From the NCBI GenBank assembly GCA_016223145.1, contig JACRPN010000012.1, forward strand, positions 186,001-250,000: DNA of 64,000 nucleotides. The letters are read 5' to 3'. Source of the DNA: Armatimonadota bacterium (GTDB lineage Bacteria; Armatimonadota; Fimbriimonadia; Fimbriimonadales; Fimbriimonadaceae). Position numbers and translations under genes: made by a program. This document shows, in pieces, positions 49,061 through 54,131 of the stretch. The notes below the pieces were generated by a model. The model searched no databases, was not told where the DNA came from, and was given only the letters and a program-made list of their open reading frames with translations. The number at the start of each line of letters is the position of its first letter. The first letter of the stretch is position 1.

Positions 49061-51850
49061 ATGCCGAAGGGCTCCGTCCGCGTCATCCGGTGTCTTCCAA
49101 ACGCCCAATCCAGGCGGCGCGTGCTCCTTGACGCGGGAATGGGCGCGTTCTCGGCGATCACCTGTCTGTCGGATGGCTTGGGACGCCCGCTTTCGGAAGC
49201 CGCCGCCGAAACGGGAGCCGGCGAGTTTGTTTCGCTTTCTGAGCTCGCCGGCAGAGCGCTCGACGCCTCCGGAATCCCGCGCGGGAACGCGCTGGCCTCA
49301 GAGCGAGAGTCACTGGCTGCCCTCGCGGCGGTCTGTCGCAACCTGCCGGAGGACAGCCCATTCAAGGGTTCGTCCGCGTTCGCCGGGTTCCACCGGCGCC
49401 TGGATCGGACCCTTGTCGAACTCAGGCTGTGGAAGATCAGCGTGGAACAGCTTCTGGAACTCGCCAAGGGGGTCCCGCCACACCTGTCTGCCAAGCTGGG
49501 CAGCCTCGCCTGGCTCATGGAGAGCCAGGAAGGAGCACTCGAGCATCTTGGGAAGACCTTTGTGGAGAACAGGATCGCAAAGGGCCTGACCTCCTTCTTT
49601 GAGCCCTCGGCCTCCATTGGGCCGGTCTTGATTTTTGCGGGCTCGGACGATGCACCGCTCTACGCAGACTGGATGAAGTGGCTCGCACTGCAGGGGGTCG
49701 CGGTGACGGTGGTGGTGGACCACCAGGCGTCCTCGGCCCAGCTCTTCGAGGGAGCGCGGCGCCTGGAGTCCCTGTTCGCTGGCCATCCGAAGTCCGTCAA
49801 CGAAGGCAACCCTCTTTGTCGCAATCTGTTTGCGCCGCAACCGAGCATGGGCGCCGACTTTGAGGTCGAGATCTTCAGCGCAGCCGACCCGCTTGCCGAA
49901 GTCGAATGGGCTCTTCGACGGGTGAACGCCGCGCTTGCGGCGGGAACGTCGGCCTCTTCGATCGGTCTCTTTGGGCGGGACCTTTCGGCCTATGGCCCCA
50001 TGATCGAAGCCGCGGCAGATCGCTTCGGCGTTCCTGTGCGGCTCTCAAAGCGAATCCACCTCAGCCAGTCGGCGCTATGCAGGCTGCTGAGGGACGCCAC
50101 GCGGCAGACTCTAAAGCTTGGCGCGGACTCACAAAGGGGCCTTGAGACGACGAGCTACTGGCCCTCGGATTCGATAAGCGTTCGCTCGGAACTCGCGGCC
50201 TGGGCAGAGCGTGCTCCCACCGCCGCAGGGCTCTCCGAGTGGGTTGGCTGGTGGCGCGGCTGTCTGGACTTCGAGTGGGTGAGGCAGGCCCGGCAAACCC
50301 CCTCGATGACCCAGACCCGCGATGATCTCGCCGCTGCGGCTCTGGAAGAGGCGCTGTTGGTGCACGCAATGCTTGAGGGCCAGGGTCTGACCAGCCAGCT
50401 CGATGCCCAGCGGTTTCTGAGTCTGCTGAACGCCGCAGTGGACCAGGAAGAATGCGCCCTGCCCGCCCAAGGACAGGGCGTGTTAGCGACCAGCCGCCCC
50501 GACGAACTCGGGTCCCTGGATTCCCTGCTGGTGTTGGGGATGCTCGAAGGCGGTTTCCCGCGACGCAGGTCCGAGGACCCGATCCTGAGCGACTTTGATC
50601 GGCAAGCCATCAACGCGCTCCGCCCAGGAAAGCCCGAGCTTCCCGATTCCCATCGCGATGCGAGAGGCGAGCGAGACGTCTTGGTGCGGGTCTGCGCCGC
50701 CCCAAGCCGCCGCATCGCCTTCAGCTATCCGTTGACCGATGACGACCGCGACAACGTGCCGGCGTTCTATCTGGAGGAGATCACGCGCGCCATGGCTGGG
50801 CTGGTCGAGAGGGGAGATCACCCCAGGGCGCAGTTGACGCCCCCCATCGAGAATTGCGCGATCCAGGCGGATCGCGAGCTTTGCACCGCGCTCGACTCGC
50901 GTTCGCGGCCCGGGCCGCCGGCTGAGCTTTTCAGCGACCTCGCGAAGGCGGCGGTGGCGCCGTTGCTTGAGGATCCGCTGAGCCCCTCCGAGCTTCGAGA
51001 CGCCCTACATTGTGGGTTCAAGTCGGCGTTCCGTCGCGGGCTCAAGCTCGATCCCAAGCGGATGGGACTCACCTGGACGATCTTGCTCGCGCTTCCGCAG
51101 AGGGTGGGCTTGCCGGCGATCGCAGGCCCTGAAGAAGCCAAAGAGCGCCTGAAACACGCCCTCGAGGCGCAGGTGCTTGAACACGCGCATGAACTCTCTG
51201 AGGGCGACCTAAAGCTGCTTCGAATCTGGGGGAGCCGCCTCATCAAGGAGTGGGTCGGCCGGGAATTTGAGGCGCGGGAACTCTGGCAGAAGGACCCCGG
51301 GTCGGTCAGGCCCCACGCTGCCTTCGGCGAAGAGGGCCTGCGCGGCGAATTGCCACTGCCTGGAAGATCGCTTCGGCTGAGAGGGGCGGCCACGGCTCAG
51401 GCGACGATGGGGCCCTATGCGGTGGTTGAAATCCTAAACGCGCGTCGGTCGATCGCCGAAGCCAAGTCCGCTGAGGACCTGAGCGACGCGGACGCCATGG
51501 AGTTGGGCGTGTACTTGATGGCGCTCTGGGGTCAGCGGGCAGCCGTAGCCGCCGAGGTCGAATCGCTATCAGGCGACCGCACGCTCTTTGTGTTGCCACG
51601 ACGCTTGGAGCAGGAGTTGGCCGGGAAAGCCGCCTCTGGAATGAGGGTGGTGGACCTAGGTGAGCCCCGCTCGTTCCTTGGCAGGGTGAAAGACAACCTG
51701 AGCCTGGCTCTGGAGCGGATTGACGCGGGAGCCGTTGCCCCGTCGCCGGGCGACCATTGCAGCCGATGCGACTTTGCTGAGCTTTGCCGCAGCGCGCAAG
51801 GAAGCGGAGAAGAGGAGGGGGTGACCTTTGCGTCCGACGTCGAAGCTTAA
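49061..51850 (+). CDS. AddB-like protein with degenerate nuclease and helicase sites
   Basis: 929 residues, partner of the helicase that follows. AddB relatives have a helicase-like fold, a C-terminal PD-(D/E)XK nuclease and an Fe-S cluster bound by four cysteines. Here the Fe-S set is kept: C651 (LRDALHCGFKSAF) and C900-x2-C903-x5-C909 (HCSRCDFAELC). The nuclease motifs are not: where active enzymes have GRIDRvD, this has G775-A-A-T-A-Q780, and in place of the DYK element it has VVEILN (E790, no lysine). The N-terminus has no Walker A (CLPNAQSRRRVLL). The middle keeps AddB-like landmarks: LVLGMLEGGFPRRRSEDPILSD. It probably serves as a structural or DNA-binding partner. Overlaps the next gene by 23 bases. 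Confidence 0.8.
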   Translation: MPKGSVRVIRCLPNAQSRRRVLLDAGMGAFSAITCLSDGLGRPLSEAAAETGAGEFVSLSELAGRALDASGIPRGNALASERESLAALAAVCRNLPEDSPFKGSSAFAGFHRRLDRTLVELRLWKISVEQLLELAKGVPPHLSAKLGSLAWLMESQEGALEHLGKTFVENRIAKGLTSFFEPSASIGPVLIFAGSDDAPLYADWMKWLALQGVAVTVVVDHQASSAQLFEGARRLESLFAGHPKSVNEGNPLCRNLFAPQPSMGADFEVEIFSAADPLAEVEWALRRVNAALAAGTSASSIGLFGRDLSAYGPMIEAAADRFGVPVRLSKRIHLSQSALCRLLRDATRQTLKLGADSQRGLETTSYWPSDSISVRSELAAWAERAPTAAGLSEWVGWWRGCLDFEWVRQARQTPSMTQTRDDLAAAALEEALLVHAMLEGQGLTSQLDAQRFLSLLNAAVDQEECALPAQGQGVLATSRPDELGSLDSLLVLGMLEGGFPRRRSEDPILSDFDRQAINALRPGKPELPDSHRDARGERDVLVRVCAAPSRRIAFSYPLTDDDRDNVPAFYLEEITRAMAGLVERGDHPRAQLTPPIENCAIQADRELCTALDSRSRPGPPAELFSDLAKAAVAPLLEDPLSPSELRDALHCGFKSAFRRGLKLDPKRMGLTWTILLALPQRVGLPAIAGPEEAKERLKHALEAQVLEHAHELSEGDLKLLRIWGSRLIKEWVGREFEARELWQKDPGSVRPHAAFGEEGLRGELPLPGRSLRLRGAATAQATMGPYAVVEILNARRSIAEAKSAEDLSDADAMELGVYLMALWGQRAAVAAEVESLSGDRTLFVLPRRLEQELAGKAASGMRVVDLGEPRSFLGRVKDNLSLALERIDAGAVAPSPGDHCSRCDFAELCRSAQGSGEEEGVTFASDVEA

Positions 51851-54131
51851 TCTGACCGACGAGCAGAGGGCCGTCGTCGCCTCTCAGGAGGCGGCGCTCG
51901 TGGTGAGGGCTGCGGCGGGCTCCGGCAAGACAGCGGTTCTCGCAGAGCGCTACTTGAAGCACGTGGTCGAGGACCGGCTTTCGCCGGATTCGATCCTCAC
52001 CCTCACCTTTACCAAGAAGGCGGCCGCCGAGATGAAGCAGCGAATCGTGCGAAGGCTTTCGGCGGCGGGGCTGCATGAAGCTGCTCAGGCGTCCGAGACC
52101 GGGCCGATTCAGACGATCCACAGCTTCTGCGAGCGGCTGCTGAGAGAGAACGCGATCGAGGCGGGGATCGACCCTGATTTCGAGATTTTGGGGGAGGCCG
52201 ACGGCGCAAGGGAGTTGCAGAGGGCCATTGAAGTCGCCATCGCCTCGGCGGAGGGGCTCGAGGATCTCGTCGTCCATGCGCTCTCGGGCAAGCGGGAACA
52301 GGGGTCGCCCTCGCCCTTTGCCAGGCTGGAGTCCACGCTCAAAGGAGCGCTCCTGAACATGCGCGGGTCGGGCTTGCCTCGGACGGCTTGGGAGGCGCGC
52401 CACCGCGAACCCGAGACGCTCCTGGCTATCTGGCGAGATGCGATGCTGGATGGGCTCGCCCCGGCGGTCAGGAGGGCCTTCGAAGAGGCAGACCCGTCGG
52501 TTCCGTTTGGCTTGCGGATCGTGCAGGCGCACAAGTCGCTCAAGCACAAGGCGCCAAAGGGCGCGCCGACCCCGGCCAAGATTGAGGATGCCGAGGCTGC
52601 CGATCGCGCCTGTGCCGAGATGTCTTGCGGCCTGGCGCAGCTTGCGTGCCGCGCCTGGAAAGCGCTCGAAGCGCGCCTCTCGGAGCTGAGGTCCCTCGAT
52701 TTCACCTCCTTGGAGGATGCCGCCATCGCGATCCTTGAAGGGTATCCCCACGTTCGCGAAAAGCTTCAGCGGCAGTACCGGGTCGCCCTGATCGACGAGG
52801 CGCAGGACTTGAGTCCGGCGCAGCACGGCCTCTTTCGAGCGTTGGGCATCGCCCTGGAGATGCGCGTCGGTGACGCAAGCCAGTCCATCTACGGCTTTCG
52901 GCAAGCCGACGTCCGGCTCTTTCAGGAGCACGCGGAGGCGACCGCCGGCTTGACCCTCTCCCGAAACTTTCGCTCGACCGATGGCATCCTGGCCTTTGTC
53001 GACTCGGTGTTTGGCAGGCTGTGGCAGGAGGGCCACGTTCGGATGTCGGCCTCCGTGCCGCTCGGCGAGCAGCCTCCTCCATCTGAAGGCGTGGAGATCT
53101 GGCGGCAGCGCGTCAAGGACACATCGCGAGTTGCCGAGTGGGTCGAAGACCTGCTTGGCACGGAAGACCCTGGAGACGTGGCCGTGTTGGTTCGCGGCTC
53201 CAAATACGCCCAGGACCTCTACGCCCGCTTGGAAGCCAAGGGGGTCCCCGCGCGGATCATCGGCGGCAGCGAGCGATTCTATACGCGGCTGGAAGTCCGG
53301 GACCTGGCGAATGCGCTCACGGCCGTCGAGGACCCGACAGATGATTTCGCGCTCCTGGCCACGCTTCGAAGCCCGATCGTGGGCCTGTCGCTTGATTCCA
53401 TCGTTCTGCTGGCGACCCAGAAACCCGTACATGAAGCGCTGCCGAGCTTTGCGCCCCCGTTTGAGGAGGATTTGGAGCCGCTGGAGAGGTTCCGGAGCTG
53501 GTTCGAACCCCTCCGATTGCAGGGCGACCGCCTGGGTGCTTGGGAGGTGCTTTCGGCGATTTTCGCCCAGTCGGACTACCTGCCGAACCTGGCCCTTAGG
53601 CTGAACGGACGGCAATCCGTCGCGAACGTCCGCAAGCTCCTCATGCTCGCCGCGGAGCGCCCGGATGTATCGCCTCGGGCCTATGCGAGCATCCTGCGGG
53701 AAGTCGCCGAACTGAAGCATCGGGAGGGGGACGCCCCGGCGACCAACGTGGACGACAGCATGGTGAACATCCTCACCGTTCACAAGGCCAAGGGACTGGA
53801 GTTTCCGGTGGTTGTGGTCCCGGACACCCACGGCGCCCTATGCCGCAACCGCCAGGAAGTCGAGATCGACAAGCGGCAGGGGCTGCTCACGACGGCGATC
53901 GGGTGTCCTGAGGTGTCGATGTTTCACGACTGGATCGCCGAAAAGCGAAAGGACCGCGAGCGCGCCGAGGAACTCAGGCTGCTCTATGTGGCCATGACGC
54001 GCTCGGAACGAAGGCTCTGCCTCGTGTCCGACCCCCAGGCGCGGGCCAACTCCGCCGCGCGGCTGCTTGCCGAGACGCTGGGCCTCCCCGACCACCTGCC
54101 GGATGGGGTGAAGGTTCGTGACGGCGGGTGA
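51828..54131 (+). CDS. AddA-like UvrD-family helicase without nuclease domain
   Basis: 767 residues from a TTG at 51828 with AGGAGG shortly upstream. All SF1A motifs are intact: AAAGSGKT (28-35), TFTKKAAAEM, TIHSFCERLLREN, DEAQDLSP, VGDASQSIYGFRQAD, SRNFRST, LTVHKAKGLEFPVVVVPD and YVAMTRSERRL. TIHSFCERLL, VGDASQSIYGFR and HKAKGLEF are AddA/RecB-like rather than PcrA-like. AddA normally has about 1200 residues with a C-terminal nuclease; this one ends 35 residues after motif VI, so the nuclease domain is absent. With the AddB-like gene it forms a translationally coupled pair, presumably a DNA-end-processing motor whose nuclease, if any, is elsewhere. Confidence 0.88.
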   Translation: MRPTSKLNLTDEQRAVVASQEAALVVRAAAGSGKTAVLAERYLKHVVEDRLSPDSILTLTFTKKAAAEMKQRIVRRLSAAGLHEAAQASETGPIQTIHSFCERLLRENAIEAGIDPDFEILGEADGARELQRAIEVAIASAEGLEDLVVHALSGKREQGSPSPFARLESTLKGALLNMRGSGLPRTAWEARHREPETLLAIWRDAMLDGLAPAVRRAFEEADPSVPFGLRIVQAHKSLKHKAPKGAPTPAKIEDAEAADRACAEMSCGLAQLACRAWKALEARLSELRSLDFTSLEDAAIAILEGYPHVREKLQRQYRVALIDEAQDLSPAQHGLFRALGIALEMRVGDASQSIYGFRQADVRLFQEHAEATAGLTLSRNFRSTDGILAFVDSVFGRLWQEGHVRMSASVPLGEQPPPSEGVEIWRQRVKDTSRVAEWVEDLLGTEDPGDVAVLVRGSKYAQDLYARLEAKGVPARIIGGSERFYTRLEVRDLANALTAVEDPTDDFALLATLRSPIVGLSLDSIVLLATQKPVHEALPSFAPPFEEDLEPLERFRSWFEPLRLQGDRLGAWEVLSAIFAQSDYLPNLALRLNGRQSVANVRKLLMLAAERPDVSPRAYASILREVAELKHREGDAPATNVDDSMVNILTVHKAKGLEFPVVVVPDTHGALCRNRQEVEIDKRQGLLTTAIGCPEVSMFHDWIAEKRKDRERAEELRLLYVAMTRSERRLCLVSDPQARANSAARLLAETLGLPDHLPDGVKVRDGG

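Follow-up and report, generated by a model that had tools for sequence, protein, structure and literature searches.

An AddAB-type gene pair of Fimbriimonadales without recognisable nuclease sites

Introduction

Bacteria process broken DNA ends with enzymes described as helicase-nucleases (RecBCD, AddAB and AdnAB); in the first two of these, Chi keeps the cutting in check. In B. subtilis AddAB the 5' strand is degraded by the AddB nuclease and the 3' strand by that of AddA, and the F210A substitution in AddB weakens Chi binding (PMC4824097). The dead nuclease domain of RecC serves as a hoop that guides ssDNA (PMC1185551), and in E. coli the nuclease-dead RecBCD helicase of recB1080 works with RecJ and RecFOR (PMC3375238).

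Here we analyse an AddAB-like pair encoded in a stretch of 64,000 nucleotides (the window) in contig 12 of an Armatimonadota genome of 3.87 Mb that is 97% complete. The named-record relatives of the window AddA come from Fimbriimonadaceae and other Armatimonadetes; Fimbriimonadales are soil and water bacteria. We found no earlier report on AddAB in Armatimonadetes in the open literature searched, and one in closed papers is possible.

Results

An overlapping addB-addA pair

The features of the locus used below are as follows.

49061-51850, + strand: addB-like gene, 929 aa, ATG start, predicted to be nuclease-dead, without Walker A
49637-49642, + strand: AddB A193-G194, replacing the Gly-Phe to which the Chi-binding F210 of B. 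subtilis AddB belongs
50918-51796, + strand: AddB nuclease-like PD-(D/E)XK domain, residues 620-912, catalytically dead as judged from sequence
51011-51013, + strand: AddB Fe-S cysteine C651
51383-51403, + strand: site of the AddB GxxDRxD element, residues 775-781, reading GAATAQA
51422-51439, + strand: site of the AddB D-Y-K element, residues 788-793, reading VVEILN
51758-51787, + strand: AddB Fe-S cysteines C900, C903 and C909
51813-51818, + strand: AGGAGG Shine-Dalgarno for addA, inside addB and 9 nt before the TTG
51828-51850, + strand: addB/addA overlap, 23 bases
51828-54131, + strand: addA-like SF1A helicase gene, 767 aa, TTG start, without C-terminal nuclease domain
51912-51932, + strand: AddA Walker A, AAGSGKT
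52794-52808, + strand: AddA motif II, DEAQD
53985-54002, + strand: AddA motif VI, YVAMTR

The 23-base overlap reported in the initial annotation is real, as the two open reading frames share 51828-51850. Overlapping genes are suggestive of an AddA-AddB complex, which remains an inference. The overlap is not universal, since addA and addB are unlinked in the genomes of family f2 and in a few of f1 (G016, on contigs C5 and C10; G030; G141). Neighbouring genes were considered as a clue to function; the conserved ones proved patchy, for example one resembling a carbon-nitrogen hydrolase (30 loci) and one for a small membrane protein (26 of 73). No defence genes were recognised beside addAB, and a defence-system reading of the pair found no support in a PADLOC comparison, in which AddA resembled GajB models through the common UvrD-type helicase domain and AddB matched none.

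AddA keeps its helicase motifs and lacks a nuclease domain

The window AddA has the N- and C-terminal UvrD domains of Pfam, and its best NCBIfam match is addA_Gpos. SF1A motifs I-VI are present, and the helicase motifs are all invariant among relatives. The initial annotation had the protein ending right after motif VI with no nuclease domain, and indeed 42 residues follow YVAMTR, where full-length AddAs of the phylum have about 350. Every AddA of the same order whose end could be read stops roughly 29-62 residues past motif VI; the long frame in G010 reflects an upstream extension and not additional C-terminal length. In a few assemblies (L145, L055 and L272) the AddA frame is split. Outside the phylum, in the loci compared, AddA/RecB-type matches with a recognised motif VI carry at least 219 residues after it, the short ones being PcrA/UvrD, so that no truncated AddA was seen among them; L063 (915 aa), in which motif VI was not recognised, lies outside this count. 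A second, full-length addA elsewhere in the genome would have refuted the proposed loss. It was looked for and not found: the genome has no second AddA-type UvrD_C protein, its sole other UvrD_C protein being PcrA/UvrD, and no AddAB-, AdnAB- or RecBCD-type motor besides the window pair.

AddB keeps its fold and cysteines while the active site is lost

The window AddB matches B. subtilis AddB over its full length with a profile E value of 5.7e-77 (3U44_B), against only 1.2e-4 for RecC. An AlphaFold model of the whole protein (pLDDT 82.7) has AddB as its best structural match, with a Z of 29 over about 870 residues (3U4Q/4CEJ chain B), and the two parts by which an AddB is recognised, an inactive helicase-like N-terminus and a RecB-like C-terminal fold, are both present. 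Folded alone, the nuclease-like domain (pLDDT 86, pTM 0.85) matches 4CEJ_B 771-1138 with a Z of 16.3 over 289 residues and an rmsd of 4.1, followed by AdnA (Z 16.0) and then Cas4 and Dna2, with RecC at Z 7. The comparison of this C-terminus with AddB and AdnA proposed in the initial annotation thus returns a retained AddB fold.

Alignment confirmed the initial reading that G775-A-A-T-A-Q and VVEILN occupy the catalytic columns and that no Walker A is present, and it extends the degeneracy, as had been suggested for checking, to 77 sequences of families f1 (70 usable sequences) and f5 (7), which we call the dead clade. In 34 of 34 intact AddBs from other families, H680, D778, R779, D781, the D of DYK, K793, Q814 and Y818 are all kept. 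In the dead clade R779, D781 and Q814 are each kept in 0 of 77, H680 in one, the D of DYK in two, K793 in four, Y818 in 15 and D778 in 24, and no AddB retains two of the four key residues D/D/D/K. A strict Walker A is missing from all f1 and f5 sequences. The Fe-S cysteines 651, 900, 903 and 909, which the initial annotation had picked out, are kept in 77/77 dead-clade and 34/34 intact AddBs, although this is known from the letters alone and the cluster itself is inferred. The claim would have been overturned by a full D/E/K set in a PD-(D/E)XK fold predicted with confidence. Such a set was sought and is absent; as an alternative catalytic set, the clade-conserved E716, R726, R734, E735, R739 and R840 were rejected, as they form no D/E/K metal site pattern. 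Because the domain matches the AddB nuclease, the cysteines are kept in 77/77 and the catalytic columns are changed, the predicted active site of AddB is lost while the fold and its cysteine staple stay; biochemical inactivity is inferred, without an assay. Chance or assembly error is excluded by the same state in 77 sequences of two families.

A Chi-binding residue is lost as well

A scan of the whole of AddB for columns at least 97% fixed in intact AddBs and below 50% in the dead clade returned 18 columns, 14 of them in the nuclease-like domain and four outside it, of which G193-F194 make up two. The F194 column aligns with F210 of the B. subtilis chain, and the window has G194. Phenylalanine occupies this position in 34/34 intact AddBs vs. 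3/76 in the dead clade, where the Gly-Phe survives in place in one (G115). F210 is also kept in outgroup AddBs from four named-record loci (L053, L058, L059 and L060) and in three independently degenerate AddBs, and the latch residue R629 remains in 58 of the 77 dead-clade AddBs. The pair is probably Chi-blind, by an inference that rests on one residue of the Chi site seen to be lost. Lineages with an AddA that is already shortened still have F210, whose role there cannot be just to put the AddA nuclease under Chi control. Residues newly fixed in the dead clade include W207, W283, W394, R503, S530 and R739, a pattern that fits a changed job.

Stepwise loss across the phylum

Full-length AddA, with about 350 residues after motif VI, is found in families f8, f20, f21, f31-f34 and f36, and truncated AddA in nine families (f1-f5, f12, f13, f19 and f24). 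An intact AddB catalytic set occurs in f2, f3, f4, f12, f19, f24, in most of f13 and in those full-length-AddA families whose AddB was read; every f1 and f5 sequence has a dead one. Truncation of AddA is more widely spread than inactivation of AddB. Since truncated-AddA families mostly keep an intact AddB site while f1 and f5 are dead, the AddA nuclease was lost first and that of AddB later, and living intermediates remain. In a tree of the AddB N-terminal part f1 and f5 form one clade (SH-aLRT 99), and their dead AddB has a single old origin. Two members of f13, G098 (L238, L295) and G100 (L235, L293), have a truncated AddA and degenerate AddB catalytic residues (H to R; K to T or R; Q to R or M) with F210 kept; their sites were lost separately and in parallel, apparently at a later time. 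G112 (f17), on a long branch, may be a third such case. As the AddB nuclease cuts the 5' strand and that of AddA the 3' strand, we infer that pairing an active AddB with a truncated AddA would yield 3' tails constitutively, which is a reasonable first step.

Proposed function

We consider it reasonably likely, though by no means settled, that the pair is an AddAB-derived end helicase for double-strand break repair that has no nuclease of its own and leaves removal of the 5' strand to a separate enzyme; the biochemistry is inferred. AddB would bind the duplex end through its Fe-S-stabilised C-terminal domain, and AddA would be the only ATP motor, its helicase activity, likewise inferred, unwinding 3' to 5'. 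The dead AddB nuclease domain is supposed to guide the unwound strand, as in RecC. The 5' strand would then be removed in trans by a separate exonuclease, most likely RecJ, or by the stand-alone Fe-S RecB-type nuclease (G000:C14) described below, the identity of this partner being conjectural, and RecA would be loaded by RecFOR. Such a machine should need no Chi switch, because its motor would cut no strand, and the Chi-binding phenylalanine is also gone. A DNA-end motor that lacks its own nuclease and perhaps recruits one was also the proposal of the initial annotation, and it is now the best-supported reading, given the clade-wide degeneracy, purifying selection and the presence of RecJ, RecF, RecO and a stand-alone nuclease. 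We lean only slightly towards the wider claim that the clade resects without a helicase-nuclease, AddAB having become a Chi-blind end helicase in two steps with motor and nuclease split as in eukaryotes.

Candidate separate nucleases

The RecJ or other nuclease suggested in the initial annotation has plausible counterparts: RecJ and a stand-alone RecB-type nuclease each occur in 51/51 complete relatives. RecO is present in 49 of these 51, and RecF-type proteins in 37/37 with a match. Since RecJ, RecF and RecO are common among bacteria, finding them here is only weak support. The stand-alone enzyme is encoded as follows.

G000:C14:76335-77138 (L152:6336-7139, - strand): stand-alone Fe-S RecB/Cas4-like nuclease, 268 aa

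It is single-copy in most genomes of the order, and a profile comparison relates it to the Argonaute-associated ACE1 structures 9IAB/9IAC. A second PD-(D/E)XK protein in the window genome (L153:6816-8048, - strand, G000:C13), of 411 aa with C-terminal cysteines, belongs to no NCBIfam family of note.

It is possible, though we think it unlikely, that the stand-alone nuclease is a fixed third subunit, so that the whole would still be a helicase-nuclease with the nuclease in another gene. Its motifs are intact (invariant GRxDRxxE, DYKSG and four Cys), it is never missing from the 51 complete relatives, and among outside genomes it is present in 13/13 from truncated-AddA families vs. 2/10 from families with full-length AddA. 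However, it also occurs in f10 and f11, where the genomes concerned gave no AddB, as well as in genomes whose AddB site is intact. Its gene is unlinked and the association is confounded by phylogeny. It lies near addB only in G039 and G049, where the common neighbour looks like a GAF-domain gene, and this linkage was judged incidental; no convincing genetic linkage of addAB to any nuclease was found. Because the association follows phylogeny and convincing gene linkage is lacking, RecJ and the stand-alone nuclease are candidates for the partner of a nuclease-free end helicase, not demonstrated partners.

Retention and selection

Within the limits of the sample (single genomes per species, MAGs among them), AddB is present in 51/51 and AddA in 50/51 complete genomes of the order. 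A reduced genome of 1.5 Mb (G030; L140, L171) retains both genes, unlinked, and a UvrD_C search showed no PcrA/UvrD in it. In four closely related species pairs within the clade the dead AddB domain has a dN/dS of 0.016-0.062, similar to or below the values for the rest of AddB and for AddA, and is under purifying selection.

A rival reading is that the pair no longer resects and serves instead as a clamp on the end or as a translocase, which might for example keep exonucleases away, strip off proteins or remodel forks. The residues fixed in this clade only (those listed above, from W207 to R739) and the loss of the Chi-binding Gly-Phe speak for such a role, but the invariant helicase motifs of AddA, the invariant Fe-S end-binding module and the lack of another AddAB-, AdnAB- or RecBCD-type motor for end processing make it improbable in our judgement; a function other than end resection is not excluded. 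That the pair is a decaying remnant heading to loss, as the split AddA frames in three assemblies might suggest, is hardly credible in view of a dN/dS of 0.02-0.06, one old origin with many descendants, and the retention of both genes in nearly all complete genomes, the reduced one included.

Discussion

Our analysis indicates that in Fimbriimonadales the unwinding and the trimming of broken ends are probably the work of two different machines. A natural and ancient clade without nuclease sites and without the Chi residue shows that it can pay to keep the motor and end-binding parts by themselves. It also pulls apart, in a natural setting, questions that until now have been addressed only through mutants: the role of the Fe-S domain without the nuclease, the purpose of Chi, and RecA loading. 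Because the order still holds intermediates with a truncated AddA and an intact AddB site, each step of the loss can be tested.

The closest described system is AddAB (RexAB), as in B. subtilis 3U4Q/4CEJ, with which the window pair shares the whole-length AddB fold, the Fe-S cysteines, the AddA motor and the addB-addA order. It differs in having no AddA nuclease domain, an AddB nuclease that appears dead, no AddB Walker A and a replaced F210, and so, at the level of predicted sites, it lacks two defining features of AddAB, the nucleases of both subunits, and a third, the Chi phenylalanine. Unlike RecBCD, it has no RecB nuclease or RecD second motor beside its AddB. RecC likewise keeps an inactivated PD-(D/E)XK domain in a non-motor subunit, but the window AddB retains the Fe-S cysteines and is AddB-like, not RecC-like (domain Z 16 vs. 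7). AdnAB has a similar fold, and the AdnA domain ties structurally with that of AddB (Z 16.0 vs. 16.3), yet AdnA and AdnB each bear a motor and a nuclease, whereas the window pair has one motor and no nuclease site. Like recB1080 RecBCD of E. coli, the pair offers a helicase without a nuclease in a cell with RecJ, RecF and RecO, although recB1080 is a laboratory mutant of another enzyme and the window pair is natural, ancient and of AddAB type. The inferred split of unwinding and degrading between enzymes recalls Sgs1/BLM with Dna2/Exo1, the proteins themselves being unrelated.
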